From positions 4,977,733-5,041,732 of the forward strand of contig NZ_JALKFS010000005.1 of the NCBI RefSeq assembly GCF_023051145.1: 64,000 nt of DNA, given 5' to 3'. The notes beneath the pieces were generated by a model, which had not been told where the DNA came from, did no database searches, and saw nothing but the letters and a program-made list of their open reading frames with translations. The stretch comes from Williamsia sp. DF01-3 (GTDB lineage Bacteria; Actinomycetota; Actinomycetes; Mycobacteriales; Mycobacteriaceae). Below are positions 24,214-55,339 of this stretch, piece by piece (within the stretch, counting starts at the first letter, position 1; the number at the start of each line of letters is the position of its first letter). The position numbers were made by a program, and so were the translations under genes.

Positions 24214-24314
24214 TGGATACACCCCTCTTCCAAGTAGCTTCGCAAAGCTCAATTCGAAGCCGAGGCAGAAATGGCCTGCATTCACCCGGCTTCCGTAGGC
24301 CTCCACCCACCAAT

Positions 24315-29200: not shown

Positions 29201-32200
29201 GGTGTCCACCACGGTGCGATGGTCAACCGGGGACGTCACGGTGATCGCGCGAAAGGCGTTGGTACCCCGATCGGATCCGGTGACGATCAGCTCCACGACG
29301 CCGAGGTAGAGATCCGCGAGCCGGTCTGCCACCGCGTCGTCGATTGCCGCCCGGTCGTTGGTCAACGCCACCGACACCGACTCGTGCAGTGTGACCAGCG
29401 CAGTCAGCCGGTAGTGAGGGGCCTGGATGTATTCGATGGCCCCGAGTCGCAGATCGCCGACATCTTCGGGACGTTCGAGGTTCTCGATCGAGAAGAGGGT
29501 GTCGAACAACTCGCGAACACCCAACGCCGAATGGAGATCCAGGAGCGGAACATGTTGGTGGTCGAGCACTTCGGTCTCCGCGCGGACGAAGTTCTGGACC
29601 ACGTCGTCCATGGTGTCGCGCTGGGTCCAGCTCACCCTGGTGGGCACGGTGTTCAGCAGCATCCCGACGATCCGGTCGATGCCGTCCACATCCTCGCCAC
29701 GACCCGCTGTGGTGGAACCGAACACCACATCGGTCCGACCCATGACGCAGCCCAGCAGAACACCCCATGCCGCGGTCATCACGGCACCCTCGCTGACCGA
29801 TCGCGATCGGGCGTACGCCGTCAGGGCCTGCCGGTGATCGGTCCCCAGCGTACGACGGCGCCGACCGATGCCATTGCCCGCACTGCGCGGCAGGTGGTCG
29901 GAGATCAGTGTCGGATCCCCGATGTCGGCGAGGTGGTTCTTCCACGCTTCCACCTCGCTCTGTGGCGTTCGCCCCTGCGTCCACCACCTCAGGAAGTCGC
30001 TGAATTGCGGTGCGCTGGAGTCGAACAGATCGCCGCGATACGCAGCCATGATGTCGTTCCAGATCAGCGCCACCGACCAACCGTCGGCGATCAGATGGTG
30101 CACCGTCTGGATGAGCCGGTACCGCTCCTCCCCGATGGTGATCAGGGTGTAGCGCATCAGCGGCGGCCGAGTGAGATCGAACGTGCGGCTGCGTTCCTCA
30201 GACGCAACTCTGTTCACGAATTGCGCTGCCTCCAGCGTCGATTCATCAACAAAACTCAACGTCCGGAACTCTGGTGCGGGCGTCGACCCGACGGTCGAGA
30301 CGACCCGGCCCGACCGCGTGGTGCGAAAACCCGCCGCCAGTGCCGTATGTCGGCGGATCACCACGTCTGCGGCCTCGGCGAGCCTGTCGACATCGAGTGG
30401 CCCGGACAACTCGACGATCTGCTGAACCATGTAGGGGTCGTGGTCATCCACCGCGATCGAATGGAAATAGATGCCGGATTGGACGGCTGTCAGTGGCAGC
30501 ACCTCACGCAAACCATCAACCTGGGAACGTATCTCGTCCGACTCGTCGTCCTCGAGTTCGACAAGAGGCGCGTCGGTTGTCGGGGCTGTCGTCGCCGGAC
30601 CCGACGCTGCGAGTGCCGTGGCCAGATGTTCGGGCGTGCGGTGAGAGACGATGTCCTGTGAGCGGAGCCTGAATCCCTCCGGCCGCAGCGCCAGGGCAAC
30701 CTTGACCGCCACGATGCTGTCTCCGCCCAGAGCGAAGAAGTCGTCGTCGACGCTGACCTTCTCCACCCCGAGAATCGTCGCGAAGATGTCGCACAGAAGC
30801 TGTTCGTGCGGTGTACGCGGCGCGATGAACGCGCCTTGCCGGGTGGGGGTCATCGCAGGCAGCCCGCGGCGGTCCACCTTGCCGTTGGCGGTGATGGGGA
30901 AAGCGTCCAGGACCATCAGGTTCGACGGCACCATGTAGTCGGGAAGATTGTCGACGCACCAGGACTGTAGGTTCTCCACATCCACCGTGGCGCCCGGGTT
31001 CTCGGTCACATAGGCCGACAGACTGTCGGCGCCGGCGGTATTGCCCGTCAGTGTCACCACCGCTTGTCGCACCTGCGGGTGGCCGGAGATGATCACCTCG
31101 ATCTCTTCGAGTTCGACCCGCCTCCCGCGGATCTTCACCTGGTTGTCCGCCCGGCCGAGGAACTCCAGCGAACCGTTGTCGCACCAGCGGGCGAGGTCGC
31201 CCGTGCGGTACATCCGTGAGCCGTCGGGGTCGAACGGATTGGATACGAACTTCGACGCAGTCATCGCGGCGTTGCCGACATATCCACGGCCGAGCAGGAA
31301 TCCGGCAGCATAGAGCTCACCGCCCACGCCCACCGGAACCGGCTCGAGCTGCTCGTCCAGCACGTACAACTGGGTGTGCGGATTGGGACGACCGATCGAC
31401 GTGGCGATTCTCTCGGCCTCGTCGCGGTAGATGACGTGCGATACGCCGATCGTCGCTTCAGCCGGTCCGTAGCCGTGATAGAGCGTGGTGGACAACTGCT
31501 GCCGGAATCGCATGAAGAGATCAGGTGTCAGAACCTCTCCGCCACACCAGATGTGCCGGACCGACGCCAGCGCAGACCCCGACCTGGCCGACCGATCGCG
31601 ATCCAGTGCCAGCAGGGTGTCGAGCATCGAGGACACCAGATACAGGTAGGTGACCCGTTCCGAGGCAATCAGATCCAGTAGGTAGTCAGGATCCTTCTCA
31701 CTTCCGGGAGCCGCCACCACCACGTACCCACCCGAGACGAGGGGCAACAGTATCTCGTTGATCGAGATGTCGAACGCCAGAGGCGCTTTGAACAGTGAGG
31801 CATCGTCTCGTCCGAACATCAGTATCTGATCACGTTGCCACACAAGTCGTTCGCAGATCGCCTCGTGCCGGATCATCGCCCCCTTGGGAGTCCCGGTGGA
31901 CCCGGAGGTGAAGATCACGTAGGCCAACTGGTTCCCCTGCACGCGCAGCGGGGACGCGTCCGGCACACAATCACCGAACCGCCAGTCGGCGAGGCTCACC
32001 GAGATCGTCTCGGTGCCCCAGTCAGTGCGGTCGTCCGCAGCTGTCAGTGCGATGTGCACCGATGCGTCGGCGCTCACCTGTCGCCGACGGGTCTCGGGCC
32101 AGTGCGGGTCGACAGGAACGAACGCGCCGCCGGCTGCCATCGTGGCCAGTACGGAAACGACCATCTCGGCCGAGCGAGACATACCGATGGCGACCACACC

Positions 32201-32452
32201 TTCGGCGGGTAGCCCCGACTGACGTAGACGTTGCGCCAATTCGCCCACCTTGACCGACAATTCGCGGTACGTGAGTCGGGTAGGCCCATCGACGAGAGCA
32301 AGGGCATCGGGCGTCGATCGGGCTGCAGCAGCGAACAACTCCGGAACGGTTGCCGTGGTCGTTGGTGTCGTCCGGTCATTCCATCGCTCGTGCAGCTCCG
32401 AAATGTCCACCTGGATCGTGGCCGAGTCCCCGGGGTGCCCGAAAGTCGTCAT
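26225..32452 (-). CDS. bimodular NRPS: A(formyl-hydroxyornithine-like)-T-C-A(beta-Ala-like)-T-E*
   Basis: The 2075-residue protein contains, in order: an A domain (about 25-540, core [13 protein letters not shown]), a carrier (Ser near 578 in GGDSIVAV), a C domain (HHLIADGW near 790), a second A domain (about 1100-1600, TSGSTGNAK), a carrier (GGDSISSI near 1648), and a terminal E-like domain (about 1690-2075) with a broken active site. In the last domain HHxxxDG is replaced by VHGVVADR. By hand alignment the first pocket reads DINYWGGIGK, the code known for N5-hydroxy/formyl-hydroxy-ornithine in coelichelin synthetase. The second reads IDTTISSGDK, lacking Asp235 as beta-alanine domains do. 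There is no leading C domain and no thioesterase, so it must work with the giant NRPS. It is divergent from the formyltransferase, sharing one iron box. Confidence 0.92.
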
Positions 32453-32512: not shown

Positions 32513-33202
32513 GTGATTCTGGTCGGCTCGGGAGCTCTGCTGTGGCGTGCCGCAGGCCATGCCGCCTCGGTGGGCACACCGGTCGACGTTGTCATCCACC
32601 CTGAAGGCGAAGCGGTCCCCACGTGGGCGTCCGATCTCGAATGCGCCGGCACCGGCGACGTCAACGAGTTGGCTGACGGCATCGACGAGTTCTGTACGGA
32701 CGGACTGGTGTGTTCGACCGGTAATCCCTTCATCTTTCGTGAGCCGATCCTGGAACTCGGCGTGACCATCGTGAACATTCACGGCGGGCCGCTGCCGCAG
32801 TATCGGGGCCTGCCCATTGCCGCCGCAGTATTCGCAATCCTGAACGGTGAGAACGAATTCGGTGTCACCCTCCATCGTGTAGACGCGGGGATCGACACCG
32901 GCGACGTCATCGACAGACGGGCTATCGCACTCGCCGAGTCCGTGACGCTGGAGGAACTGTCGATGGAGGTGACGCAGGCTTGTCACGACATCTTCGTCGA
33001 CAACATCGACTCCCTCGATCGAAGTCCGGTGCCGACCTCTGTGAATCACTCCTGCGCTCCCGCAGGCTATTACGGGATGAAGCAACTCGCCGACATCGGC
33101 AAGTACCGGGACCATCCGAACTTCGTCCGGGCCACGGAACTCGGCGTACTGGAAGACCACTACCCGGCGTACCGGGATCTGTTCGCGTCCTACCGGGCCT
33201 GA
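32513..33202 (+). CDS. hydroxyornithine N-formyltransferase (FxbA/CchA type)
   Basis: The 229-residue protein has the formyl-tetrahydrofolate transferase fold. The catalytic triad is visible: Asn and His in VNIHGGPLPQYRG, and Asp in GIDTGDVID. The segment resembles methionyl-tRNA formyltransferase but the tRNA-binding C-terminal domain is absent, as in siderophore formyltransferases such as FxbA (exochelin) and CchA (coelichelin). The expected reaction is formylation of N5-hydroxyornithine, giving a formyl-hydroxamate ligand. Start is GTG 32513. Its divergent partner encodes an NRPS whose first A domain fits the product, supporting the assignment. Confidence 0.88.
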   Translation: MILVGSGALLWRAAGHAASVGTPVDVVIHPEGEAVPTWASDLECAGTGDVNELADGIDEFCTDGLVCSTGNPFIFREPILELGVTIVNIHGGPLPQYRGLPIAAAVFAILNGENEFGVTLHRVDAGIDTGDVIDRRAIALAESVTLEELSMEVTQACHDIFVDNIDSLDRSPVPTSVNHSCAPAGYYGMKQLADIGKYRDHPNFVRATELGVLEDHYPAYRDLFASYRA

Positions 33203-34323: not shown

Positions 34324-37300
34324 TCAGCTTCGGGTATCAGAGATGAACCGGCGCAACCGATCTCCCCAATCCGCAACGACGTCGTCGTCAAGCATCTCGC
34401 GATGCCCCTTTATGGTCGATGAATATTCCACCTTTCCAACGATGTGATGACGCCAGTTAAAGGTGTCTAGATTGCCGTCCACCCCTGCCTGCAACAGCAA
34501 AGCATCCGCGTGTACCTGTCCTTGCGTCGGCCTCGCCAGATGCTCGGTGGCGGTCGCGCCCGACTTCAACATGCCTCGTACGTCGGACTTTTGGATCCCC
34601 GGCCACAGTGGCGCCACCTCGACGGCGTGATCGACGAGCTCTTCCACCGTCGAGAAACCCCCAGGGTGGTCGATGCTGAATGCGTAGCAGAAGTCATCGA
34701 TGGACTCCTGGAGCGACATCGCTCCCGTGATGTAACCCGGTTCCGGGGTCGGGCCCGAGTCGAGCAGCGTCAGGCTGATCAGTCTCGAGTCGCTCTGCTT
34801 CTCGATCAGTTTGGCGAGCGCAAACGCCAAGTGCGCGCCGTACGACCAGCCGAGCAGATGGATGTCGCCACCATCTGCCACACGGTCGATGAGGTCGAAG
34901 TACCAGCGCGCCGTCGCATCGAGATCGCCCATGTCCATCTCGGGATCGAACAGCGAGACGTTCTGCAGCCCATACACGGCCACGCCGTCCGGTACGTGGG
35001 CCACCAAGCGGTCGTACATCACGGCTGACCCCGACGCGGGATAGGCACAGAACAGGTGCTCGGTGTACGCGGCCTCGGCCGTCGGAGAAAGCCTCAGCAG
35101 CACAGAGTCCCGCAGATGATCGGTATCCGAGTGATCGGTGGACCGGTCGATCAGGTTCGCTATCGTCGAGACCACCGGGCTCTCGAAGATGTTGCGAACA
35201 CCCACCTTCACACCGAACTCCGCAGCTATTCGGGATGCCAGCCGCACGGCGGTGAACGAATGCCCGCCGAGATCGAAGAAGTTGTCGTCGGCCGACAGTT
35301 CGACGTCGCCGAGCCCCAGCACCTGCGCCACCAGTTCGCCGACGGCCCTTTCGGTTCCGGGTGACAGAGCTCGCCCGTCACGGCCGTGTCCGCTCACCTC
35401 CACCGCGGGAAGAGCCGACCGGTCGAGCTTTCCGTTGGCCGTCACCGGCAACACGTCGAGCACGGTGAACGCCGTGGGCACCATGTGAGCCGGCAGTCGA
35501 GAACCGCACCAGTCGCGCAGATCATCGTCGAACGCAGCCGGGTCGTCAGTGACCTCGCCCGTTGTGTAGTACGCGGCCAGAGTCTTTCCCGACGATGGGT
35601 GGTCGACTGCGATCACCGCGGCCGACGACACCCGAGGGTGGCCGTCCAGGACTGCAGCGACCTCGCCGGGTTCGACACGCTGGCCTCGGATCTTCACCTG
35701 GTCGTCCACGCGTCCGACATACTCCAGCACACCATTGCCGTCGGCTCGCACCAGATCCCCTGTGCGATAGAGGCGTCCACCGCTTCCTGCCGGATCTGCG
35801 ATGAACCGCGATGCAGTCAGCCCGAAACGATCGTGGTAACCACGGGCCAACTGCGCGCCTGACAAGTACAGTTCGCCCACCACACCTGCCGGGACCCGTC
35901 GTAGCCACGGATCGAGGACCAGCACACCGCAATTGGCCACCGGCCGTCCGATCGGGACAAATCCTTCACGTTGTTCACCGGGTACCGCTCCACAGTCGAA
36001 GTACATCACCTCGCCCGATTCCGTCGGCCCGTAGATGTTGAGGACGTTGGCGCCCAGCGACGACTCGACCGAGTCGGCCAGGCTCCAGCGAAGTGCCTCA
36101 CCGGCGAGCAGTACCTCGGCCACCTGGGCCCCGGAGTCCGCGTTGACGTTCTCCACGAGGGTGTCGGCCATCGACGGCACGAAGTTCACGCGTTCGATGT
36201 CGTGGCGGGTCACCGCGTCGACAATCTTCCACGGATCGCGATGATCGCCTGCCGCGAGAACCACCACGGCGTGACCCTCCACCAACGGCGAGAGCAGTTC
36301 GGGCAGCGACACATCGAACCCGATCGGTGTCTTGACAAGAATCGGCCCGGTCAACGGGTACCGCCGGCGACCCCATTGCAACCGGTTGGCCAGCGCCCTG
36401 TGCGAGACCACAACGCCTTTGGGCTGCCCGGTTGTCCCCGAGGTGTAGATCAGATAGGCGGCGTCATCGGCGAAAAGAGCTCGGCTCCGGTCGTCGTCCG
36501 TGATCGGCGCATCCGATTCCCCGGCACCGCTGCCGATTGCCAGGACGTCGATCACCGGGATGTCGCCGGTACCGGCCGAACCGTTCCCGTCCGGCAAGTT
36601 GGTCACCACCACAGTCGGCGAAGAGTCCTCGAGCAGATAGGTGATCCGCTCTTCGGGATAGGAGGGATCGATAGGCAGGTAGACGCCGCCTGCGCGCAAC
36701 ACCGCAGCCATCATCACCGGCAGCCACTCGTCCCGTTGCGCGACCACGGCGACGTGGTCACCGACGTGTACGCCCGCTCCGATCAGATGGCGGGCCAACC
36801 GGTTCACCCGGCCGTCGACCTCTGCGAACGACCACTCGATCGCGCCATGTACAACTGCGACGCTCGACGCGAAGTCAGCAGCAGCGCTTCGCAACAACCC
36901 GTCGACCGTGATCTCCTCGTGCACGGTCGTTGCCCCAGGGGCCTGAACGGATCGGGTGATGTCGACGTACTCGACAGGAACCAACTGCGCAGCAGCGAGC
37001 GAGGTGTCGAGATCCTCGGCCACCACTTCGAGTACCTGCACCAGTGTCTCGATGAAACGCCTGATCGTCGATTCCTCATAGAGGTCGACCGCGTACGCCA
37101 GGTTCGCATCGATCCGCTCGCCGTCGTCGACGAAGAAGACGTCGAGGTCGGCCTTGACCACTCCGAGACTGCCACCCAGCGGATCGAGCAGGCCCAGGCC
37201 GGCTTTCGCAAGAAGGTCACGCTCGTGCGATCCGCTGGACTGGGCGACATAGCTCACCAGCACCTGCACCAATGGGTTCGCGCCGGCGACGTGAGCGCCG

Positions 37301-40300
37301 TTCCCCGCGGCGACGATCTGGTCGAACGGTACCCGTTGATGCTCGAACGCGGTCAGCACATTATTCCGGGTGCGCTGCAACACGGTTCGGAAGCTGTCCT
37401 GCGGAAGCAGGCGATGCCGTATCGGCACCGTGTTGACGAGATAGCCGACCGTATCGGCGACGGTCTCCTCTGATCGGCCGCCCGTCGGCGATCCCAGCAC
37501 GAGGTCGGTGCCCGAACCCAGCCGGTTCATCGCCACGGCGACCGCCGCGTGCAGGGTCATGAACATCGAGACGTCCAGCCTGGCCGCCGTCTCGCGGACG
37601 CGCGACACCAGTCCGTCGTCCAGCGAGATCTCGAGATCGATCCCCTTAAAGCTCTGTCTGCTCGGCCGGCTGCGATCCGGAGGCAGGGTGGACAGTTCCG
37701 GTGCACCGGCCAACTGGTCGTTCCAGTAGCGCACCGACTCGTCGAATCGACCCTGGTCGAACAGCGATCGCTGCCACACCGCATAGTCGGCGAATTGCAC
37801 TGCGAGAGGCTCGAAGACGGGTGCCTCACCGCTTCGACGTGCGCAGTAGGCATTCCAGAGATCCCCGGACACCGAGCCGATGGATCCCTCGTCGACAAAA
37901 GCATGATGCAACGCCATGCCCACAACGAACTGGTCGTCGCTGCGGCGCATGACCACACCTCGCAAGGTCGAGTCCGCAGCAACGGACAGTGGCCTGCTGC
38001 CCCATTGCTCGATGAGCGAGACAGTCTCGTCGTCGCTGCATCCGACCGCGTCGACGTGGTCGATCTGCAACCACCGCTCGACCGAATCCGGAGGCGTGAT
38101 GACCTGCACGATCGAGCCGTCGTCGGCCTCTGACAGTCGGGTCCGCAGCGGCTCGTGGCGGACGACGAGGTCACGCAGGGCGGCGGTCCACGCGATGGGT
38201 TCGAGGCGGCCGGAGACGTGCCACAGGATTGTCACCGTGTAGGTCGACCCCGCACCTGCCATCTCGTCGATCACCCACAGTGCCTGCTGCCCATAGGAAG
38301 CCGGGATCTGGTCTGGCCGCTCGATCTCGCCGATCCGTGGAAGTCCGGGTGCCTTCTTGACGTCGCCAGGACTGTCGTCGCCGTCGATGGCGGCCGCCAT
38401 CTCCGCCACTGTCGGGTGATCGAAGATCGCACGCACGGAGATCGGTTGACCCAGTGTGTTGCTCAATCGTCCGGCCAGACGCATCGCGAGCAACGAATGA
38501 CCACCCATGTTGAAGAAGTCCGCATCAATCGACACCTGAGAGATTCCGAGGGTGTCTGCGACGGCGGCGGCGATCGTCTTCTCCAACTCGCTCCGGGGCT
38601 CCCGCGCAACCTCTTCTGCCAGTTCGATCTCGGGTAGAGCGCGTACGTCGACCTTGCCGTTCACCGTCAGCGGGATGTTCTCGACCACCCCGATCGCCGA
38701 GGGAACCATGTAGTCGGGCAGCCGGGCCGCGAGATGATCACGCAGGTCGGAGACCTCGATCGTCGCCTCCCCCGCAGCAACGACGTAGGCGTGCAACGCC
38801 TTACCGGACGAACTCTTACGGACCACAACCGTGGCGCGCGACACGTCCTCACGATCGACGAGGGCACTGGCGATCTCCGCCGGTTCGATGCGGAACCCGC
38901 GGATCTTGATCTGATCGTCCGAGCGCCCCAGGTACTCCAGCGACCCATCGGGCTGACGCCTCATCAGGTCGCCGGTGCGGTACATCCGTTCGCCCGACCG
39001 CCACGGGTGGGCGATGAACGACGCGGCCGTCAGATCAGGCCTTCCCTGGTAGCCCCGGCCCATTCCGGCACCGCTGAGATACAACTCGCCCGCCACGCCG
39101 TCCAGCACCGGGGTGAGCGACCGGTCGAGCAACAGTGCCATCGTGTTGAAGATCGGCTCGCCGACATTCGGGCGGTCACTGTCGGCGAGATTCGCGCCGA
39201 GAGCATTGATCGTGTATTCCGTTGGGCCGTAGAGGTTGTACGACCACAGACCGGGTCGCTCACGCAGCGTCGCCCACAACGTCTCCGGGACCGCCTCTCC
39301 TCCGAGCGAGAAGAACGAGATGCCGTCGTAACCGGGTTCGGTATGGGTGAACAGGCCGGATTCGACCAGCAGTTCACCGTAGGAGGGCGTGACGTCGAAT
39401 CCGTCGATGCGGTTCTGCGCGTAGTAGGACAGCAGCGACGCAGGATCTTTGCGCATGCTCTCACCGATGATGTACACCGAATGTCCGTCCAGCAGCCAGA
39501 ACAACTGCTCCCACGAGGCATCGAACGAGAACGACGTGGTGTGCGCGATCTTCATCGGCGCGCCGCCCCGGCCTTCGGTGGCCGGACGGAAGATGCGCTC
39601 GACGTGGTTGTAGAACATGTTGATCAATCCGCCGTACGGGACCGCAACACCTTTCGGCGTACCGGTGGAACCCGACGTGTAGATGATGTACGCCAGGCCG
39701 GCTGGATCGACAGCGCGCTTCACCGTCTCAGGCACCGGTGTATCGGCCACGGACAAGGTCTCACCCACGAGCAGCAGTTCGGGCGCGGTCTCGGGAAGGG
39801 ATGACGCCAGCATCGCCGAGGTGCACACGATCGAGGACTCCGAGTCATCGAGGATGTATCCCACCCGGGCAGGAGGCAATTCGGGGTCGATCGGCACGTA
39901 GGCAGCGCCGATCTCGAAGACGGCGAACATCGCGATGGCCATGTTGTGGTCGCGCTCGAGGTACAGGGCCACCCGGTCCTCCAAACCGATACCCCGTCGG
40001 ACCAATTCGGCCGCCAACGTGCGGACGTGCGCCGACATCTCCTCGAACGTGAGGCGTGTCCGGCCCGACACCAGCGCAGTCCGGTCGGGATGTGCCTGCA
40101 CCTGACGGGCCAGCAGCGACGCTATGGACTCCGTCGGGATGTCCCGACGCACCAGGCCGGCGGTGACACCGGCAAGAGACTCGTCCTCGGACAGAACCGA
40201 GATCCTGGCCATCGGCGCATCCACATCGTCGACGAATCCGCGCACCACTCGCACGAACCGCGCCATCAGGGTGACGACCTCGTCTGGGGTGAGAAGGTCA

Positions 40301-43300
40301 CTGCGATAAGCACATCGGAGATGGATGGTTCGGCCGGGGTGACAAGCGATCGACACCGGGTAGTGCGTCGCGTCCTGCAGCGACACATCGTCCACCGAGA
40401 CCGAACCGTCCGGACCGATCTGCGACCACTGCGCGTCGGTGTCGATCCACTGGTGGTTCTGCATCACGAACAGCGTGTCGAACAGCTGGTCCACCCCCAC
40501 CGTGCTGTGCAGTTGCGACAGCTGCACATAGGGGTGTTCGATCGTCTCGAGCTGGCTGTGCTGCTGAGCGCGTAGGTGTTCACGGACCGTGTTTCCCGGC
40601 CGCACCGTGGTGCGCACCGGAACAGTGTTGAACAGCAGACCGATGATCTGGTCGGAGTCCTGCAGATCCGGGCTGCGGCCTGAGGCCACCGTGCCGAACA
40701 CCACGTCGTTCTGGCCCACGAGCTTGCTCAGCAGCACACCCCACGCTGTATAGAGCAGTGTCGCAACGGTGACGCCCGCATCAGCTGCCACGGCGCGTAT
40801 CGAAGCCGACAGCGTCTCGTCGAGATCCATCTCGTGGTCCCGCGCATGCGAGGCGCGGGCGGGCTCGGTGATCCCTGGACGGATCAAGGTCGGCGATTCG
40901 ATGCCGCCCAGTTCGCGGGCCCACACTGCGTAACCTGTTGAAGTGTCACGGGTCTGGAGCCATTGCAGATAGTCCCGGAACGACGGCTCTGCGGGGGTGA
41001 TCCTGTCGGGCACCACATCGACGGCGACGTCGATCTCGTTGTACAGCCTGAACAACGCCTCCAACATCAGGCCGCTCGACCAGCCGTCCATGAGCAGATG
41101 CTCGAAGACGACGGACAACGTCCACTTCTCGGAGTCGTTCTGCAACAGGGCGAACCGCATCAGAGGCGGAGCGTCCGCGGCAAACGGCCGACGACGTTCT
41201 TGCTGCAGGATCGAGTCGCGCCCGAGCCGGGCGGTATCTGCCTGCCGATACCACGTCCAGGGCACCTCCACCTTGGCCTGGACGACCTGGAAGGTGGATT
41301 CACCGTGCACATGGAATCCGGCCCGCAGGTTCGGGTAGCGGTACAGCAATGCCGTGACCGCGGCATGGAACCGGTCCGGATCGACTGCGCCGGCGAAGTC
41401 GATGACGAACTGTGACGAATAGACGTCCGTCGAGTCGGCAGCCTCCGCCGTCAGCAGGTGGAAGAGCAGACCCTCCTGGAGTGGACTGACCGGAAGGATC
41501 TCGGCGACCTGGCCGAACGTGGCCGACAGTTCTCCGGCGAGGTTCGCGCCGACCTCCACCAGTTGTGGGGCCGCGATCTGTTCGTACACAACACCGTCGA
41601 CCCACGGATCGGGTGAGGTCAGAAGGCCGGCCGCCGATCCGGTTGCGGCCAGGGCGGCGGCAACTCGTTCTGCCAGGCCCACCGCATCGACCGCCAACGT
41701 TGTCACGACGTCCACGGCCACGGCCACCCCGGAACTCTCCGTACCGGCCACGACCACATCGAGCACCAGCGGGTGGTCGCCCGGTGACGCGGTGATGTCC
41801 GGCGCCACAGGAGAACCCGCGTGATGGAGCCGTATTGCGATCTGCGCCTCGGGAAGGTCATCGAAGACGCCGGCGGTCGCAGGGCTGTGGTCGCGCAGAA
41901 TCACGTAGCCCTCGGCCTCGGCGGCGGTCATCGCCAGGGCGTCGCGGGTCTCGTCGGCGAGGCCACCTGTTTCCGAAGCCCACCTGACCAACACGGGGAA
42001 CGTCCGCCGCGCTCGCCCGATGATGTACTGCCGCATGTCTTCGCGCGACGGTTCTTCGATGTCGATGATGACACCATCGGAGACGAGGTCCGCAGGGGTC
42101 AGTACATCGATGGCGGTCAGGGCGCGCACCGTCGACGACACCACCGACGCACGCAGGTCTGCCAGGGCAACCGGTCCGGTTGCGGCATCAGCATTCACGA
42201 CACTGCGTCCGATGCGCCGATCTCGGCCCGCCACGGCCAGGGTGATCGGATCGGCGATGTCGACATCATCTGCGAAGGCCAGCCATCGGTCACTGTGGTC
42301 GTCGACGCGGTCGCCCGCGGCGTCACGCTCGGCTCCGATCAGGTCGGCCGCTGGCAGAGCGATCTGCAACCGATCCGCATCAGGGGCTTGCAGTACCGCA
42401 AACAGAAGGGTCTTGATCACGCCGACCGATTCGAGGTCGAAGCGGCCGTCACCGGGCACGCGGATCTCGAAATCGTCGACGTGCACGCCGTCGGAGGTCG
42501 AACACACGATCAGCGGCGTTGTCGCTGTCGGTAGCGATCCGTCCCGATCCATGGCGAGCGGCATCTGCACCACGCCGGTCCCGGTCAGGCCCCACCCGAG
42601 GACCCGTAACGCGGCCTCGCGTACGTCGGTAATGCTGAACCGGGAGGCGGGCAGGCGGACACTCTCAGAGAGAACAGCTTCCGCTGCTCGGTCACCGGTT
42701 GGCATCCCGCCGGATCGCGACCGCTCGGGTGCGATGTACTCCGAGCACAGTTGCTGCACTGTCGCCGTCGGCGACTGACTGCCGGCGATCAGCAGGAATG
42801 CGGTGGTCGCCATCAGGTTCTCGATGGTTGCGGGCTCGAACAGGGCCGATGCGTAGCTGAACCACAGAGTCCAGGCGCCGTCGTTGTCGATGATGGCAAC
42901 GGTGAGATCGAACTTCGCAACCGACTCGGAGCGCCCGGCATCGAGGACATCGATCGCGCGACTGAGATATCGGTGGGACTCATCAGGCGCCGCTGCGCGG
43001 TACGCGGTCAACACCTGAAAGACCGGCGATGTGCTCTCGGCACTCACGCGCAGACTGGGTGACGATGCCACGAACTCGAACGGCACGTCTCGGGCGTCGA
43101 GGGATTCGAGCAGGAGTCGACGCGATTCGGCGACGTTGTCGGAAAAGCTCGCGGATGGTTCGGTCGACACCGGCACCGGAACGGTGTTGAGGTAGTACCC
43201 GATCGACTGGTCGGCATCAGGCCCCTGGCGCAGGGTCGCCGGCGTGCCGAAGACGGACCTGTTCGCGGCGCCGTGCGATGCCAACGCCGCAGACAGTGCG

Positions 43301-46300
43301 GCGTTGAGGAGCATCAGCGGCGTGACACGACTCCGGGCGGCGAATTGTTGTACCTGTTCGACGAGTTTTTTCGGCACAACACATTCGGCTTCCGCCGCCG
43401 CCGATGCCGCAGGCCGGCCAGGGCCCGCGTGGTCGTAGGGCAGGTACGGGTACACCACGTGGTCCGCAAGCCGCGTCGTTATCCGTTCGAGGAGGGCGGA
43501 GCGCCCGCCCGGTGCCGAGTCGAGCACGGACCGTTCCTGGATCGCCCAGTCGGCGAACTGCCGCAGACGTCCCTGACCGTCGGCAAGCTGTTGTCGCGCA
43601 GGGCCATCGCCACTCTCAGCCCGCAGAGCGAGGTCGAGATCGGCCAGGAAGACGTCGAACGACGTCTCGTCGAACACGATGTGGTGCCCCGCCACCAGCA
43701 GCCACTGACGACCGGCACTGCGCAGGTGCACGAACTCGACAAGCCACTCCTCCGAGCCGTCACGTGGCCGCCCGAGGCGCTCACCGGCCGTGCGCGCAAC
43801 GTCAGCCTCCGCTACGTCGACGACGTCGTACGGAACACCGTCGGCGTCGCGTGCGTCACGAATGACCTGGACCAGATCTCCCGCACGCCAGTCGAAGTGA
43901 GTTCTCAGCGCTTCGTGGCGCCGCACAACCGACACCACCGCCCGTCGCAGGGTCTCTGCATCAAGACCCGGGTCGACCTGTAACGCATCACCGATGACGT
44001 ACTGGCTGCTCGGCCCGGTTGCCTGGCCGATCGCCCAGAGCGCCTGCTGGCCATATGAAGCCGGGATATTCGACGGCCGTTCGATCTTGCCTGGCTGCGG
44101 ATGCACGGCCGGTGCGGCGGTCTTCATCGCTGCGTCCACGGCGGCGCTGAGCTCGGCAATGGTCGGGTGATCGAACACCGACCGCAACGTCAGATCAGAT
44201 CCACACCGGTCGTTGAGCAGCGCGACCAAGCGTGTTGCCGTCAGCGAGTGCCCACCGAGGGCGAAGAAGTCGTCGCCGGCGGCCATCACGACGTCGTCGT
44301 CCACCCCGAGAACCCCGGCGACCGTTGTCGCGACCACACGTTCTGTATCGGTTTCCAGCTCGCGTCCCCGGCCGCTCGAGACACCCACGTCCACGGCAGG
44401 AAGGGACCTGCGGTCCACCTTGCCGTTGGCAGTCGTCGGTAGCACGTCCAGACGCATGAAGACCGACGGGACCATGTGTGCCGGTAACTTGGCGCCGACC
44501 CACTCGCGTAGTTGTTCCGCGAACAGGTCGTCGGACAGATGTGCACCATCGCCGAGTGCGGTCACGTACCCCGCCAAAGTCACTCCGGCGACCGGATGTT
44601 CGACCGGCACCACTGCGGCGGATCCGACCCAGTGGTGGCCGCCCACCACCGCGGCAACCTCACCGGGTTCCACCCGCTGGCCCCGAATCTTCACCTGATC
44701 GTCGACGCGTCCCAGATACTCCAGAAGGCCATCGGCATTCCATCGGGCCAGATCGCCCGTCCGGTACATGCGACCACCAGACCCCCGTGGGTCGGCGACA
44801 AAGCTCCCGGCCGTCAACCCGGGGCGGCGGTGGTAACCGCGCGCCAATTGCACGCCCGACACGTACAGTTCGCCGACGACACCTGCCGGTACTCTCCGCA
44901 ACCACGAATCCAGCACCACGGCAGTGGTGTTGGTGAGCGGACGCCCGATCGGAAGGGTCCCGTCCGAGTAGTCGGCGCCGGGGTCGAACTGGCCGAGTAC
45001 GACCTCGATCGTCGCTTCGGCCGGTCCGTAGATGTTCCATGCCCGCACACCGAATCTCGTGTGGAGGTCACGGGCAAGCGACACCGGCACCGCTTCGCCA
45101 CCCAGCGACAGAACATTGGGCGCCAGCTCCGTCAGGGTGCCCTGCCGCAGCACCTCCTCCATGAGCGACGGGGTGAAGTCGATCCAGGCGAAGTGATTGT
45201 TGTTCAACAGCTCAGCGATGTACGCCGGGGCGGCGAACTGGGTGTCATCCAGATAGTGCACAACACCACCGAAGGCCAGCGGCCAGAACAACTCTGCCGC
45301 CGCCGGATCGAAACCGATTGCGGTTCTCGCCATCACGACATCACCGGGAGCCAGTTCGCAGAGTTCCTGGCGACGACGGATCAGCTCACCAAACGCCCGG
45401 TGCGTGATGTCGACCCCTTTGGGTCGCCCGGTGGTGCCCGAGGTGTACACCACATAGACCGAGTCGTCGGCATGCAATCGACGCGAGCGTTCGTCATCGC
45501 CGACGGGCGACGGATCCATGATGTCGATCCGCGACGCCACCGCTGGATCAGCCAGATCAAATGTGTTGGTGTGGCCGTACATCGAGCCACCGTCGTCGGG
45601 ACCAGCGGTGATCAACACCGCAGCGCCACTGTCTTCGATCAGGAACCGGATTCGTTCGAGTGGGTAGGCGGGGTCGATGGGAACAAACGCGGCGCCGGCA
45701 CGCACCACCGCGGCCAGTGCAAGGGGCAGCGCCGGGCGCCGGTGGATCAGGACCGCAACACGGTCCCCGACCTCGACCCCGGATCGGATCAGGTGGCGGG
45801 CCAGCCGGTTGACACGCTGATCGAACTGCACCGAGGTGTAGGTCTGTCCTCCGAAGACCAGCGCAGGTTCCGACGGACGCTCACTGGCGGCGGCCTGGAG
45901 CATGGCGTCCACGGTCGGGTGCTCGGCAGCCATCAGGACCTCGCTGCGTCCGGCATCCTGCAGCGGCACGGGGCCGAACTCGACAGCGCTCAGCGGCTTG
46001 TCCGGAGCGTGGACCATCACGTCGAGGACGGCGGTGAACACGTCCACGAAACGGTCGATGGAGGCCGGTGTGTACAGCTCGGCGGCGTACGAGACACCAG
46101 TCGTCAGAACACCGTTCACCACTTGGAACTCGAGTTCGAGGTCGGCCTTGACGGTCTTCAGGACACCGCCGACCCTCTCGAAATGCGACAGGCCGGCGGG
46201 CTGGAGGGTGTCGTCTCTGATCTGTTCGTGCTCGGTCACGAAGTTCAGCAGCACCTGACACAGCGGGTTCGCTCCCGGAACCCGGCCGACGCGTGATGCC

Positions 46301-49300
46301 GCCACAACCCTGTCGAAGGGGATCAACTGGTGGTCGACAGCTCCGAGCACTGTTTCCCGGGTGGCGCTCAAGAACTCTCGCGGCGTCCACATCGGTTGCA
46401 GGCGGTGCCGGACGGCCACGGTGTTGATGAGGTAGCCGACCGTGGACATGACTGCCGCGTCCGGACGTCCCGCGGTCGGCGAGCTGAGCACCATGTCCGA
46501 ATCGGCCCCCAGCCTGTGCAAGGTCAGAGCGACCGCGGCGTGGACGACCACGAACATCGAGGCACCGGTGTCGGCAGAGAGTTGTTGCAGGGCAGCGGTT
46601 GTCGCCTCGTCGATGACAAGTCCGGTGTGGCCGCCTTGGAAGGTGGGTGTTGCCGGTCGCGGCCGATCGGGTGGAAGGGTGGACAACTCGGGCGCCCCAG
46701 CCAGGGTATCGGCCCAGTACTGAGTGCCTCGCTCGAAGGCAACGGTGTCGACGAGCTGCTGCTGCCACACTGCGAAGTCCGCATACTGCAACACAACCGG
46801 CGGCAGAGCCGGTTCCCGATTCTCTCTCAGGGCGCCGTACGCTGCCCAGAGCTCGCTCGCGACCGTGGACATCGACCACTCGTCGACAAACGCATGATGT
46901 ATCGCAACCGCGAGGATGTAGCCGCCATTGTCACGCGGTGCGACGAGCGAGCGGATCGGCATGTCCGTATCGAGGGCGATCGGACTCTGCACCCAGTTCT
47001 CCACCGTGTCCCAGTCGGCACTGTCATCGGACCCGTCCAGGTGCAGATGGTCGGTGGTCAACCACCGGCCCACGGAGTCTGCGGGTTCCACGATCTGGAC
47101 AAGACCGTGTTCCCCGGCCTCCACCAACCGGGTCCTCAGCGCCTCGTGGCGGCGGACGACCACTTCGAGGGCTCGTTCCCAGGTCGCCTGGTCGAAATGC
47201 CCCTCCACGTACCACTTCACCGGCACGACGTACCGGCCGCTCGCTTCCGAGAGGCCTTCGATGGCCCAGAGCGCCTGCTGGCCCGAGGAAGCCGGTATGT
47301 GCGCCGGACGGTTCACGGCCACGAGCCGAGGCAATGCCGAAGCATCACCGGGGCCACCCGCCGCATCCACCGCCCCGGCCAGGCCGGCGACGGTGGGGTG
47401 ATCGAACACCGAGCGCAACGTCAATCCCCGGTCGCATCGCGCGTTGAGCAACGCGATCAGTCGGGTCGCCAGCAGCGAGTGCCCGCCCAGGACGAAGAAG
47501 TCGTCCTCGGCCGACAACTGGACTTCCCCGAGCCCGAGGACGTCGGCCACCAGCCTGGCAACGGTGTGTTCGGTTTCCGTCGACAGTGGACGGCCACGTC
47601 CACCGCCTGCCCCCAGATCGATTGCCGGCAGCGCACTTCGATCAAGCTTCCCGTTCACGGTCACCGGCAGCTCATCGAGCCGGACAAACGCCGAGGGCAC
47701 CATGTGGGCGGGCAGTCGCGACGCTGTCCACTCGCGCAGTTCGTCGTCGAACCCGTCGGTCACCGACGCGGCAGCGTGGTCGTCGGACGTCCCGGTGCCG
47801 GCTTCTGTGTAGTAGGCGGCGAGTACCGTCCCCGACACCGGGTGTTCGACCGCCACCACGGCCGCGGACGAGATGCGTGGGTGCGAGCCGAGTACCGCAG
47901 CGACCTCACCGGGTTCCACACGCTGGCCCCGGATCTTCACCTGGTCGTCGGCACGGCCCGAGTACTCCAGGACACCGGTGGCGGTCCACCGGACGAGATC
48001 GCCTGTCCGATAGATCCTCTCGCCCGAGCCGGCGGGGTCGGCGACAAACCGGGATGCCGTCAGACCGGATTGCCCACGATAGCCGCGAGCCACCTGGACA
48101 CCCGACACGTACAATTCACCGACGACACCGATGGATGTCGGTCGCAACATCGGATCAAGCACCAGCACAGACGAATTGGCCACGGGAAGGCCGATGGGCA
48201 CCGAACCTTGCCCGTTCGGCGACAACAAATGAGTGGTCACGTCACCGGCGACCTCGGTGGAGCCGTAGAAGTTCGTCACCGCCGCATCCGGCCACGCGGA
48301 CGTGAGCTGCTCGACTGTCGGGACATCGAGTCGCTCCCCCGACACCGTCACTCGGCGCAAGCTGTCCGGTGACGCGCCGGACGCCGCCATGTTGCGCGCC
48401 AGGGACGGAACCATCAAGACATCGGTGACACCCGCCCGTGCGCACAGCTTCGACAGTTGTGCGGGGTCTTTCGCCTCGTCTGCGGTCGCGACGATCAGCC
48501 GGCCTCCGACCACAACGATGTGCAGCATCTCGGTGAGTGCGTCGATGAACCCGAGACCGGATTTGGCAACGCCGACCACGTCGTCGCTGTCGCCGATGAG
48601 GTGGGCGCCCCAGGACAGGCGGTTCACCAGGGAGCGGTGCGACACCTCCACGCCCTTGGGTGCACCCGTGGTACCCGAGGTGTAGATCACGTACACCAGG
48701 TCACCGGCCAGCAACGGCCGGTTACGTTCCGACTCCCTGATCGGTTCGCTGGACACCGCAGCGATCGTGTTGAGGGTCAACTCATCCCGGAGGTTCACGA
48801 GTCGCCCGTCGCCGAACAGATCGTCCTCGACACCCGGGAAGTCGGGGCCCAGGGAGCCGGGTCCCGCCGTGCTCAGGATGGCGGTGGGTGTGCACTCGGC
48901 CAGGATGTGGTCCCGGCGTCGCTGGGGATGCTCGGGATCCACCGGGACGTAGACCGCACCCGCGCGGATGATGGCCGCAACGCAGATGGGTAGCCATTCA
49001 TCGCGACCACCGATCAGGGCCACTCGGTCACCGACCTGGACACCGGAGACGAGCATGTACCGGGCCAACCGGTTCACCTGCGCGTCGAACTGCGCGTAGG
49101 TCATCTCCAGAGCCCGGTGGACCACCGCGGTCCGATCGGGATGGGACTGTGCAGACGCGGCCAGCAGCGAATCGACCGTCGTGTCCGGCAGTACCTGCAA
49201 CGCGGGTCCTGCCGAGACCTGCTTGATCACCGAAGCTTCCGAGGCACCCACGGTGTTCAGTCGCGCGATCTGTGTGTCTGTCCCCGCTCCGAATGCCTCG

Positions 49301-51516
49301 AGAACGCGGGTGAAGCTGCCCAGGATTCTGCGGGCAGAATCTGCGTCCACGCCGGCCGGGTGGTAGGACAACTCGACCGCCAATTCGGCGGCGGGAACGA
49401 CGCGCAGCGTGAGCGGATAGTTCGTCGAATCGCGCCACTGCCGTAGCTCAAGAGAGAGTCCGGTTGCGCGTTGCAGGTCACCCAGCACGGTGTCGTCGCT
49501 GACGTAGTTCTCCATCACCACGAGCGTGTCGAACAATGCCGGCATCGCGCTGAGACGGTGGATGTCGGTGAGCGAGACCTGATGACCCTCGAGCACCGCC
49601 ACGTTGAAGGCATGCACGGCGTCGAGCACTGCATGGATTGTCATGTCGGGTGACACGGTCACGACCGTGGGAACGGTGTTGACGAACATTCCGATGGCGG
49701 TGTCGATGCCGTCGACGTCCACGGACCGCCCGGAGACCACAGACCCGAAGACCGTTGTCGCCAAGCGGGTATGGATCTGTAGCGTCAGCGCCCACGCAGC
49801 CTGGACGACGGTGTTCAGTGTGATCGATCTGCGCTTGGCAAGGTTCGCGAGTTCGGCGGTCACGGGCGCGGAGAGAACCGTCTCGGCAGTGTCGGGGAAA
49901 GACGTCTCGTCCGGTTGCCAGCCACCGGCCACCAGGGTCGGCTCGGTGACCGCGGACAGCGGACCCTGCCAGACGTCGATGGCGTGCTGCGCGTCCGACT
50001 CCGCCATCCGGTGCACGAAACGGAAGAACGTGTCGTCCATCTGCGAGGCAACGGCTTCGGGCGCTTTATAGGCCCGCAGCAGCTCCTGGACGAGCAGCGG
50101 AGTTGACCAGCCGTCGAGTACCGCGTGGTGCGATGTGAGGACCAGAACACCCGCTGCGTCGACGGTGAGCAGCAGCGTCAGACGAATGGGTGAGCCATGC
50201 TCAACATCGAAGCCCCGTGCCCGGTCGTCCTCGATGAACGTGGCGGCATCGTGTTCCGGATCCACACTCGCCCGCAGATCGATCACCGTCAACGGTTCAT
50301 CCACAGCCACCGGGATGACGGCGACGGGGGTGCCGTCGTGCGCGGTCCGCACAGCCATCGCCAGCTGCGGATACTTCGTCAACACCGCTCGCCATGCGGC
50401 GTGGAGCCTGTCCGGCTGTACCGCGCCGGCAACGTCGCGAACGTGTTGCGCCGTATACAGATCGACGCCGCCGGACGCATTGAGGGCTGAGTGGAAGAGG
50501 ACACCGCGCTGGGCCGGCGTCAGTGGGTGCACCCCGAGAAGTTCCCCGTGATCGCGCTCCCACGTCGCGATGTCGTCCGTCGACACGTCGACCAGGGGAA
50601 AGTCGCTGGGCGAGTGTGCCACAACCGCTTGCGGTGAGGTGGCGTACTCCGCGAGAGCCGCCAGCGCCGCCGTCCATCGGTCGGCAAGTGCACGCACTGC
50701 GGCTTCGTCGATGACCGACTCGACGTAGGCGAAATCTGCGTGCAGCTCGACTCCGGAATCGGAGACGACTGCCCTGGCGGTGATGTCGACGACCGCCGGG
50801 GCCGGCATCTCGTCGGCCGCATTCAGACCCAATCCCGCTGTCTCCGGGGCGGATTGCCATGGCAATTCGCTGTTGACGCCACCAACACCGGCACCTCGGA
50901 ACTGGCCGAGGTAGTTGAACGCGATCTGCGGGTGGTCCAGGGCGATGAGACCAGTCGCCGGTCCTGTGGCGAGGTGGCGAAGAACTCCGTAACCGATGCC
51001 CTTGTCGGGTATCGAGGAAAGCGTCTCTTTCACGGTCAGGACTGCATCCAGCGCGCGCTTCCCGTGCAACCCATCGGCTTCGGATCGCCCGAACTCGCTG
51101 CGAGGCAGCGGAAGCCGCACCGGGTACCACGATGTGAACCAGCCGACTGTCGTCGACAGATCCGCGCCGTCGACGACTCCCTCTTCGCGGCCGTGACCTT
51201 CCAGCCCGATGACCATCCCGTCGTGCGACAACTCATCACGATCGGAGAACACCTGGGACAGCGCCGCGGACAGCGCGCCGAGCAAGACGTCGTCGACGGT
51301 TCCCGCAGCGATCCGCGGGACGTCGGTCAGAACAGCGGACGCGGTGAGCGCGGGAATCATCACACTCACGCGCCGCACATGCGCACAGGTGTCACGTTGC
51401 GGATCAAGACGCCGGTGCCCGAGAACGCCCTCGGTCTGCCCCGCCATCGCCAGCCACAGCGGTCTCTGATGATCGGAGCGCCTGCGGCGGCCCGGCTTGT
51501 CAGCGCTTGAGCCCAC
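34324..51516 (-). CDS. giant NRPS, C-terminal part: (E)-C-A-T-C-A-T-C-E*-C-A-T-C-A-T-TE
   Basis: The 5730-residue frame starts in the middle of an epimerization domain and is almost certainly the continuation of the gene at 55286 after a frameshift. Domains by approximate residue: rest of E 1-310 (NYLGQF), C1 with HHAVLDGW at 464, A1 810-1300, T1 Ser 1346, C2 with HHAFVDEW at 1542, A2 1880-2390, T2 2424, C3 with HHIVFDET at 2615, decayed E* 2930-3335, C4 with EHLLMDGW at 3475, A3 3800-4300, T3 4340, C5 with HHAFVDEG at 4540, A4 4880-5390, T4 5418, thioesterase 5460-5730 with GWSYG and a late KGHRE His. Hand-read pockets: A1 IDTLTSFGDK (beta-Ala-like), A2 DPADSGIIEK (unknown), A3 DAEDSGLINK (near the DMENLGLINK hydroxyornithine code), A4 DVPNLAIEVK (unknown). 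The thioesterase releases or cyclises the product. Confidence 0.93.
41500..42720 (-). other. decayed epimerization domain inside the giant NRPS, with no A or T domain before it
   Basis: Between condensation domains C3 and C4 lie about 400 residues that are neither A nor T. The stretch [16 protein letters not shown]...LPEAQIAI follows the E-domain pattern in which GYGLLR...TA...LPxPQIxFNYLG is normal, and FPVLVRW precedes it as in E domains. The catalytic HHxxxDG has become a CSTSDG-like segment, and NYLG is lost. The domain should be inactive. Its position directly after a C domain implies that an A-T pair was lost or is supplied in trans. Confidence 0.65.
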
Positions 51517-54500
51517 GCCACCAGCCCGGTGCCTGCGGTGGGCAGGCCGACATCAGGCGAGCGCACATCGGAGGACGACGCGGCAGCCAGGTCGTCGGCG
51601 AGAATCCGCCAGGAGACCCCGTCCACGACGAGGTGATGGATCACCATGACGAGGCGCCCTGTGGCGCTCGCCGAATCGGTGATCCACCGCGCTCGCCACA
51701 CGACGCCTGCCGCCGGATCCAGCGCGCCCGCGAGGTCGGTCGCGACTTCTCTCAGGTGCTGCTGCCACTTCTCGGTGCTCCACCGATTGAACTGTCCATC
51801 AATGCGCTCGTCACGATCGAGCCTGTCTACCGCATTCGCGCCGACGGCGCCGACCTCGAGTTGGCGTGCTTCTCCCGATCCGACGACCCGCGCGCGCAAT
51901 GCCCCGTGTCGTCCGACCACTCGGTCGAGCGCGTCGCGGAGCCGCTCCCACGTCAGATCTTCGGGAGTCACGAACACAAATGTCTGTGCGAAAGAATCGA
52001 ATCCGGGCGCATCGATCAGTCGATGGGCGATCGGCATCAACGGAGCGAGGCCGCCGTGGCCGCCTCTCGCCGCCTGGTCCCGTCCGAAGATCTCACGGCC
52101 ATCAACCGCAGGAACAGCCGAGGCCGCGATCGCCGCAACCGTGCGTTGCTCGAACACCATCTTGGCTGTGGTCACCAGTCCTGCGCGCCTGGCCCGCGAC
52201 ACCACCCGGATGGAGACGATGCTGTCGCCACCGAGGGCAAAGAAGTCATCGTCGGCCGACAGCTGGGCCGCCGGATCAAGGCCGAGTACGTCGAGGAAGA
52301 CCGCCGCGATGATGTGCTCTGCGGCAGTGCTGAGTTCGCGCCCCTGGCCGCTGCGCGCGCCGAGATCTATTGCGGGAAGCGCTCGGCAATCGAGTTTGCC
52401 GTTCGCGGTCATCGGCAATGCGTCCACCCGGACGAACACCGACGGCACCATGTGGGCGGGCAGCGTGCTCTCGGCCCAGACGCGCAGTGCGGCATCAAGT
52501 GGCTGTCCTTCGGAGTCGGACTCGACCGCCGCGCAATAGTAGGCAGCAAGAACTGTTCCTGCTGCGGCATGTGGGTTCGCGGCGCCACTCGATTCGGCAC
52601 CCCGATCGACGGCGACGACAGCAGCTGCCGTCACATCCGGATGCGATTGCACGGCGGCGGCGACCTCACCCGGTTCGATACGGAATCCGCGGATCTCGAC
52701 CTGTTCGTCGATGCGGCCCAGATACTCCAGCTCGCCCGCGACGTTCCACCTCGCAAGATCACCGGTGCGGTACATACGGGTTCCGGACCCGTTCGGGTCG
52801 GCGACGAATCTTGTTGCGGTCAGCGACGGACGACCGCGGTATCCGAGACCGACCTGCGGTCCGGCCACATACAGTTCTCCGACGACGCCGATCGGTGTCG
52901 TCTGCAGATGAGGGGTGAGGACATCGGTACGGAGGCCGGGCAGCGCCCGCCCGATGACCGACGCTCCTGCGACATCGCCGTGCGACGACACCACGGTGTG
53001 CGTGACGTGCACCGTGGTCTCGGTGATCCCGTACATGTTGATCAACGTCGGCGTGGTCGGGTGACGATCCAGCCACGGCGCGAGCCTGGCCGCATTCAAT
53101 GCCTCGCCGCCGAACACGACCGTTCGCAGTGCGAGGTCTGAGCCGTCCGTCCGGTGCTGTTCGGTGTCGATCAACGCATAGAACGCTGACGGTGTCTGAT
53201 TGAGGACGGTGACCCGATGCCTCCGGATCGCATCTCCGATGAGGACCGGATCGCGCAGGACATCCTGGCCGACCACAACAAGCGCAGCCCCGGTGGTCAG
53301 GGGCACCCACTGTTCCCAGACGGAGAAGTCGAAGGCGTACGAGTGCAGCAAGATCCATACGTCGTCGGCGCGGAAGTCGAAGTGTGTGGTGGCGTCGAAC
53401 AATGCGATGACATTGGCGTGAGTGACCATGACGCCCTTCGGACGACCGGTCGTGCCCGAGGTGTAGATCAGATACGCCGCATCTCCGGGGAGCAGTCTGC
53501 GTGTGCGGTCGGCGTCGCCGACCGGTTCCGGCGACACGGTGTCGAGGTCCCGCACCACCGAAGGGTCTGCGACGTCGATGATCGGCGTCCCCACGACTCC
53601 GGCGAACCGCCCGATGTCGAGAGCATCTCCACAGTTGGTCAGCACTGCACTCGGTGCGGCGTCCTGCAGCAGGAATTCGATCCGGTCGTCTGGATAATCC
53701 GGGTCCACCGGAACGTACACAGCGCCCGCGCGCATGACTGCCGCGAGCATGACAGGCAGCCACTCGTCACGCGCGGCCATCACCGCGATGCGGTCGCCGG
53801 TGCGCACACCCGATGAAAGAAGGTGCCGGGCAATGCGGTTCACCCGTGAATCGAACTGTGCATACGTGAGGTGCCGATCGTCGACGGCCACCGCGACCCG
53901 TCCCGGATGCTCCCTGGCTGCAGTCTGCAACAGCTCGTCGATCGTCACCTCGCGACTGACCTCGGGTTGCCCCGACACCCACTCCGACAACAGGTCGGTG
54001 TCGACCGGGTCGGCAGGAGCCAGCGCGCGCAGACGATCGTCGGCCGACAGCGACGACAGCCTGCGGACTGCGCTCTCGATCCGTCGCAGATGCACCCGCA
54101 GTTCTGATTCGTCGTATCGGGTGGGGTCGGCCTTGAGTTCGAGCGCGAACCCCTTCACCTTGTCGTTGTAGACGAACAGATTGAGGTCGTCGGCCGGTCC
54201 GGTGCCGAGTTCCTCGGTGACCGCGACCGTTCCCGCGAAATCGGCGTGGTAGTCGAACACATGTAGATTGATCTGCGAGAGAGCAGGTTTGACGCCGTCG
54301 GACACCTGGGCGAGGCGCTCACCCCGGTAACGCTGATGGCGGCGCACGCCGCCGAGTGCGGCCGCCGCACGGGTGATCCACTCGCCCACGTTGCCGTGTG
54401 GATCGATCTCCAGCGACACGGGCAGAACATTCACCTGCATCATCGGGGTACGCAGGCCCACCCCGCGCCGAGCCATCATCGGGATTCCGATGGTCGCCTT

Positions 54501-55286
54501 GGTACCGCCCGACCGATGCGAGTCGTACCAGGCCCAGAGGGCGATCATCGCCTCACCCCAGGTGGCGCCGACCGATCGAGCCAGTTGGTCGACCCTGTCG
54601 ATGACCTCCCGGTCGATCGACACGGACACACCGATGGGCATGTTCTCGCTCGGCGACGCCGGCACCAGCGACGCTGCGGAGTCTGCCAGCGCTTCGGCGA
54701 AGGCACTCCAGTACTCACCATCACGCTCGGCGACATCGCTGCGCCCGTATTCGTCCTCGGCCGTGATCATCTCGGCCACGGTGCCGAACGTCGACTCCGG
54801 TACGGCCGCGCCCCGCGACAGCGCGGTGTACACCTGTGCCACCCGACGGGTCATCAACGACAGCCCATACGCGTCGAGCAATATGTGGTGCGCCTTGAAC
54901 TCCCAGACGATCTGCCCATCGTCGAGCGACCACACTGTGGCGGCGAACAAGGGACCTTCAGCGAGGGGTAGCGCCTCGGCCATCCGCGTGCGCGCTTGTG
55001 CCCGAAGTGAATCGGCGGTGCCCACGTGGTTGCGCACCTCGATCGACGGCGGGGTAGCCGGCACCTGGATCGACTGCAGCGGCCCCTGCGGCCCGGTGTC
55101 GAAACGGCACCACAGGACGTCGGCGTCGTGAACGGCGATGCCCACTGCGCGAGCCAGGACTTCGCTATCGCACCCCGCGGGCAGCCACAGGAGCTGCCCG
55201 ATCGAGAACACCGGCGACCGAGGCGCCAATTCCTGAGCGAACCACACGCCCCATTGCGCACCCGAGAGCCTCATGCCACGTCCCAT
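51366..55286 (-). CDS. giant NRPS, N-terminal part: EntF-like C - A(Thr) - T - E (5' piece)
   Basis: The 1306-residue frame starts with a C domain that strongly resembles the N-terminal domain of EntF. Shared features are [53 protein letters not shown] and TRYDES. EntF-type C domains accept an aryl group from an aryl carrier protein. The A domain (about 460-970) has [14 protein letters not shown], and its hand-read pocket is DFWNVGMVHK, the Thr code of coelichelin synthetase. A carrier (GGDSIVSI, Ser near 1021) and an E domain with intact [10 protein letters not shown] follow, so D-allo-Thr is likely. The E domain is cut by the frameshift near 51470. The start is ATG 55286; TTG 55292 and ATG 55274 are alternatives. 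It lies 54 bases after PanD. Confidence 0.92.
51440..51500 (-). other. apparent one-base frameshift within the epimerization domain
   Basis: The upstream frame is domain-like up to about SRAAAGAP, then turns into Arg/Gly-rich nonsense ending at 51366. The downstream frame becomes E-domain-like from [15 protein letters not shown]. Joining the two needs a shift of minus one in the reading, i.e. one missing base. No slippery heptamer is visible. It may be a sequencing error, a real inactivating mutation, or less likely a functional split. Confidence 0.8.
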
Positions 55287-55339
55287 CGCCAAACCACATT
55301 CCCTTGCGCTCGCCGATGCGAGACGGTCGTCGATCGTGT

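Follow-up and report, generated by a model that had tools for sequence, protein, structure and literature searches.

The 64,000-nt stretch of Williamsia sp. DF01-3 considered here (contig NZ_JALKFS010000005.1, positions 4,977,733 to 5,041,732; hereafter the window) carries a siderophore cluster with two nonribosomal peptide synthetases (NRPSs) encoded on the minus strand. One is a giant protein in which two condensation (C) domains, C3 and C4, flank a degenerate epimerization-like domain, X; the other is a bimodular protein ending in a further domain of this kind, EB. Profile annotation gives the giant NRPS the order C(starter)-A1-T-E1-C-A2-T-C-A3-T-C3-X-C4-A4-T-C5-A5-T-TE, where A, T, E, and TE denote adenylation, carrier, epimerization, and thioesterase domains. 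The starter-type C domain (54036-55271, motif HHILLDA, assigned by hidden Markov model annotation) has 3,4-dihydroxybenzoate (3,4-DHB) as its probable substrate, judging from the aryl supply genes of the cluster. It is followed by A1 (52347-53936, threonine code DFWNVGMVHK), E1 (50767-52058), A2 (47599-49167, beta-alanine-like code IDTLTSFGDK, with PanD encoded in the cluster), and A3 (44371-45903, code DPADSGIIVK). The last module and release domain, C5-A5-T-TE, occupy 34327-38304, with the A5 code DVPNLAIDCK. Substrates, here and below, are predictions from adenylation codes and gene content.

In the genome of the window, the giant NRPS is divided between two frames (51366-55292 and 34324-51516), since one base that is present in the aligned relatives is missing near 51475, within E1, through either a real mutation or a sequencing error. 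In five relatives the protein is a single frame of 6985-7027 residues with the same order of domains, which is therefore not an artefact of assembly, and chance or misassembly was rejected as the origin of C3-X-C4. The carrier preceding C3, which would be the in-cis donor (44134-44352, residues 2389-2461 of the 5730-aa frame), had been called T2 in an earlier, sequence-only reading of this DNA; the carrier is indeed present, but it is the third of the intact protein, the count having been put off by the frameshift.

Between C3 (42802-44064, residues 2485-2905 of the same frame, motif HHIVFDE) and C4 (40216-41493, residues 3342-3767, motif EHLLMDG) there is neither an A nor a T domain. This gap, already described by the sequence-only reading, is real, as seen from the profile annotation and from the unchanged order in the five relatives. 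The space is filled by X (41494-42801, 436 residues), which matches no C, A, or T profile. After C4 come A4 (38605-40116, code DAWDSGLINK) and T4 (38383-38595, from profile annotation), the carrier on which the proposed branch-point residue would be held.

The bimodular NRPS (26225-32452, minus strand) consists of an A-T unit for formyl-hydroxyornithine (fhOrn; 30611-32338, A code DINYWGGIGK), a C-A-T module for beta-alanine (27404-30496, C motif HHLIADG, A code IDTTISS.GK), and EB (26228-27379). Profile annotation confirms the earlier description of this protein as A-T-C-A-T-E*, with no first C domain and no TE. EB, of about 385 residues and weakly C/E-like in sequence, is related to E domains by profile. 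Nine diverse members of its kind share fifteen invariant residues in their alignment, and the domain is usually the last one of a TE-less NRPS, placed directly after a carrier.

The kinship of EB with E domains is clear in hhalign (97.9), and in profile comparison X is closer to EB (62) than to E (44) or C (4). Neither X nor EB has the HHxxxDG motif, and X fails both the C and E profiles. In a sequence search of the PDB, the best match of X reached only E = 0.039, and EB matched E/C-type domains of tyrocidine synthetases (8e-8 to 4e-6). Structure models of EB (from a single sequence) and X (from four near-identical sequences), with mean predicted local distance difference test values of 36 and 34, respectively, were not used. 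The ratio of nonsynonymous to synonymous substitution rates (dN/dS) is 0.33-0.39 for X and EB, indicating fast evolution under constraint, and X recurs as a domain at a fixed position. Thus, the view of the two domains as decayed E domains holds as far as their degenerate, E-like nature is concerned, but X is not merely decaying, being recurrent at a fixed place and constrained.

X and EB also occur together. Among 401 genomes of the family, both were found in 21, X alone in five (G023, G201, G214, G343, and G204), and EB alone in one (G232), with a Fisher p value of 2.7e-29, uncorrected for relatedness and obtained with an EB cut-off set by eye at a gap in the scores. A class-wide search returned two strong EB matches outside the family, both in one genus, one of them with A(DAWDSGLIN) on the same 13.6-kb contig. 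The two domains look like a matched pair derived from E domains, and the bimodular NRPS is probably the partner that plugs in at the C3-X-C4 junction, as the sequence-only reading had suggested. Within Williamsia, C3-X-C4 and the partner are present together in six of nine genomes, and at the thresholds applied neither was found in the remaining three; the close named relatives of the genome of the window are Williamsia muralis. A near-identical cluster in a record titled Kitasatospora arboriphila (L034, NZ_JNYV01000011.1) groups with those of Williamsia, and the record is probably mislabelled. The expectation that gap and partner would co-occur in homologous clusters is borne out by all six Williamsia cases and by the 21 genomes of the family with both, but the case that the sequence-only reading had named as refuting its proposal, a gap with no EB partner, does occur in G343 and, less clearly, in G023.

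The arrangement C-X-C-A(DAWDxxLIN)-T recurs beyond Williamsia, in several genera. All C4 domains (26 of 26) fall in one clade (support 0.973), as do all 20 C3 domains (0.988), which were found only before X/C4, and the 27 DAWD A domains (0.997). The trees, built with FastTree from one alignment, may shift with sampling. Since each of the three forms a single clade across genera, C3, C4, and A4 are inherited together as one block. The motif EHxxxDG replaces HHxxxDG in 25 of the 168 C domains collected, every one of them a C4 preceding A(DAWDxxLIN). The sister group of C4 (0.909) is made up of 11 C domains that load DMWNLGLI hydroxyornithine in exochelin-type lines; C4 lies outside that clade and has EHxxxDG rather than HF or a similar motif. 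The A domains behave likewise, A4 belonging to a sister clade (0.989) of the DMWNLGLI hydroxyornithine A domains and differing from them in code. C3, in turn, falls within the LCL group, among ordinary T-to-A LCL-type C domains, and keeps HHxxxD in the genomes examined. Both C3 and C4 are under purifying selection (dN/dS 0.14-0.17). Local decay after deletion of an A-T pair was consequently rejected as the main account, in view of the three clades and of the selection on C3.

As a side observation, C domains before hydroxyornithine A domains in G385, G360, G133, G062, G088, and G130 (loci L073-L082 and L087-L088) carry HFxxxDG, HLxxxDG, or QFxxxDG, in which the second histidine, usually taken as catalytic, is missing.

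In our judgement it is probable, on balance, that C3-X-C4-A4-T4 is a dedicated module with two donors that gives rise to a branched siderophore. A4 would load N5-hydroxyornithine, with its two acylatable nitrogens, onto T4. C3 would transfer the in-cis chain (3,4-DHB-D-aThr-betaAla-X3), held by the carrier before it, to one of these nitrogens, and C4 would transfer the fhOrn-beta-Ala chain of the bimodular NRPS, held by the carrier that precedes EB, to the other. X, as the docking domain on the acceptor side, within the giant NRPS, and EB, as that on the donor side, at the end of the partner, would hold the two proteins together and bring the partner carrier to C4. The branched product would then proceed to module 5 and to the TE, and with one catechol and two hydroxamates it would offer six donor atoms. 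In the wider form of this proposal, X and EB form a dedicated pair for docking, derived from E domains, through which the finished chain of another NRPS is admitted in the middle of a line, and together with a C domain of the EHxxxDG type they make up a two-donor branching module common to several actinobacterial genera; for this we see about even chances.

Clusters that depart from the Williamsia arrangement bear on how the block works. The EB-ended partner in G423 and G328 has a starter-type C domain of its own (motif HHIVADV or HHIVADF), and so does the X-bearing NRPS; the two chains therefore start independently, leaving no free place for a chain that departs from C3. The X protein of G338 and G363 starts directly at X-C4, with C3 absent and nothing in cis upstream of X, as expected if C3 serves only the in-cis chain. 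In G007, G201, and G214 (loci L116, L118, and L129), the N terminus consists of a formyltransferase, the remnant of a C-lobe (hhalign 98.0 against C domains and 96.1 against C3), X, C4, and A(DAW), with the formyltransferase sitting where the N-lobe of C3 would be. The formyl group seems here to stand in for the chain delivered by C3 to the same residue. The window itself has a formyltransferase-like gene beside the partner (32513-33202, plus strand), which is 54-55% identical to the formyltransferase domain that precedes X-C4-A(DAW) in the fusion proteins of these three genomes. The architecture of the partners in G095, G357, G007, and G286 is incomplete, as they are cut by contig ends.

Several findings weigh against the two-donor module. 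G343 has C3-X-C4 with a strong X and no EB match; the partners in G023 and G214 end in a bare carrier T, without EB; and in G272 and G204 the C3-type domain is N-terminal, with no preceding carrier. As a test, local ornithine monooxygenase genes gave a mixed picture: none lies in the retrieved neighbourhood of X in G338, G363, G095, G423, G175, and G328, although each of these genomes encodes one, so that A(DAW) in the six may load plain ornithine. The hints as to regiochemistry conflict as well: the sister clade of C4 suggests the hydroxylamine nitrogen for C4, and the formyltransferase fusion may point to the same nitrogen for C3. Structure work on exochelin MS reportedly showed acylation at the delta nitrogen, that is, at the hydroxylamine.

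Of the other explanations, the one that survives best, unlikely as it is, assigns to C3-X a modification of the A4 residue, either acylation with a small donor or ring closure, and has the EB partner make part of a different product. From the formyltransferase fused at the same place it is evident that a small acyl group can be handled at this site, and G343 does without an EB partner. On the other side, C3 is a full relative of C domains, falls in the LCL group, and in most cases stands behind a loaded carrier, and X and EB co-occur tightly.

Ranked below it, and likewise doubtful, is the handover that the sequence-only reading had put forward, with an exit from the giant synthetase and a later return to it, in which C3 passes the giant chain to fhOrn on the first carrier of the partner, beta-alanine is added, and C4 retrieves the whole into a linear product. 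The Williamsia partner, with no first C domain and no TE, fits such a route, as do the count of modules and the six Williamsia cases (out of six) in which partner and gap coincide; the X/EB pairing would suit the return step. An intact starter C on the partners in G423 and G328 would, however, make C3 redundant, and the loss of C3 in G338 and G363 or its replacement by a formyltransferase would be left unexplained. In exochelin-type lines, moreover, the fhOrn-beta-Ala unit is N-terminal and an A-T start without a C domain is normal; the bimodular partner starts in the same way. For these reasons branching is favoured over the handover, and insertion of fhOrn-beta-Ala into the middle of the chain is disfavoured with it.

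Least likely of the three is a bypassed or structural C3, with C4 taking only the partner chain or only the in-cis chain to give a linear product with fewer residues than the number of modules implies. Some NRPSs, such as that for locillomycin (PMC8949500), can pass over C domains that stand in tandem with no A-T pair, but C3 keeps its HHxxxD motif in the genomes examined, has a dN/dS as low as that of C4, and is lost where the in-cis chain is absent.

The nearest known relatives of the block are the exochelin-type NRPSs, such as FxbB/FxbC of Mycobacterium smegmatis, which share with it the fhOrn A-T start, beta-alanine in second place, a hydroxyornithine module, and sister clades of C and A domains; FxbB and FxbC have been described fused in one frame (PMC5550956). 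The exochelin-type lines collected, in contrast, make one chain, have neither X nor EB nor a second C domain before hydroxyornithine, and carry HFxxxDG or a similar motif in the C domain before this residue, where Williamsia C4 has EHxxxDG. In the vibriobactin system (VibF/VibH), extra C domains also acylate several nitrogens of one acceptor, although the acceptor there is a free polyamine and not a carrier-bound amino acid. Icosalide synthetase, a single NRPS with two starter C domains and with five C for four A domains, brings two acyl chains into one product (PMC8949500). Its second starter C domain is embedded in a single protein, whereas in Williamsia the C domains stand on either side of an E-like domain and another NRPS would provide the second chain. 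A test for a tandem of the icosalide type was negative, C3 grouping with LCL-type and not with starter C domains. Amonabactin and other products of non-linear (type C) NRPSs resemble the proposed one in that the siderophore is branched, with a side-chain nitrogen acylated, but amonabactin is accounted for by optional and iterative use of domains, with no X/EB pair described (PMC8949500). The in-trans A-T modules of the albicidin and ramoplanin systems provide a separate protein that fills a gap in a main-line module (PMC8949500); they supply one aminoacyl unit, whereas in Williamsia a TE-less NRPS would supply a chain. Branching and non-linear NRPSs are thus already known (PMC8949500). The X/EB pair, C domains with EHxxxDG, and the C3-X-C4 block are undescribed in the literature searched, which covered few subscription papers, and the same search found no structure of a Williamsia siderophore.

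Should the two-donor reading be correct, an order of domains usually taken for a gap or a broken module would become a recognisable code for branching, from which genome miners could predict branched siderophores, with the EB end as a guide to the partner NRPS, and engineers would gain a natural route for merging two assembly lines. The reading also opens to testing the idea that degenerate E domains act as surfaces for docking, as well as the cause of the altered motifs (EH or HF for HH) at hydroxyornithine.

Upstream of the giant NRPS, still on the minus strand, lie genes for a PanD-type aspartate decarboxylase (55340-55747), which would supply beta-alanine, an MbtH-like protein (55784-56059), and an ornithine/lysine N-monooxygenase (56040-57383), followed at 57498-60345 by a dihydroxybenzoyl-AMP ligase, a 3-dehydroshikimate dehydratase-like gene, and a free aryl carrier (60001-60345). 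The latter two (59120-60345) suggest 3,4- rather than 2,3-dihydroxybenzoate. X was also considered as an interface domain for siderophore beta-hydroxylases, and this was rejected, the Fe(II)/alpha-ketoglutarate hydroxylase Pfam family having no member among the open reading frames of the window that were scanned. Beyond the partner, two further minus-strand frames stand out: one of 612 residues (24358-26196), in which siderophore-interacting protein domains are fused to an O-methyltransferase, an unusual fusion, and one of 347 residues (23263-24306) in which an AMP-binding enzyme is represented by its N-terminal part alone.

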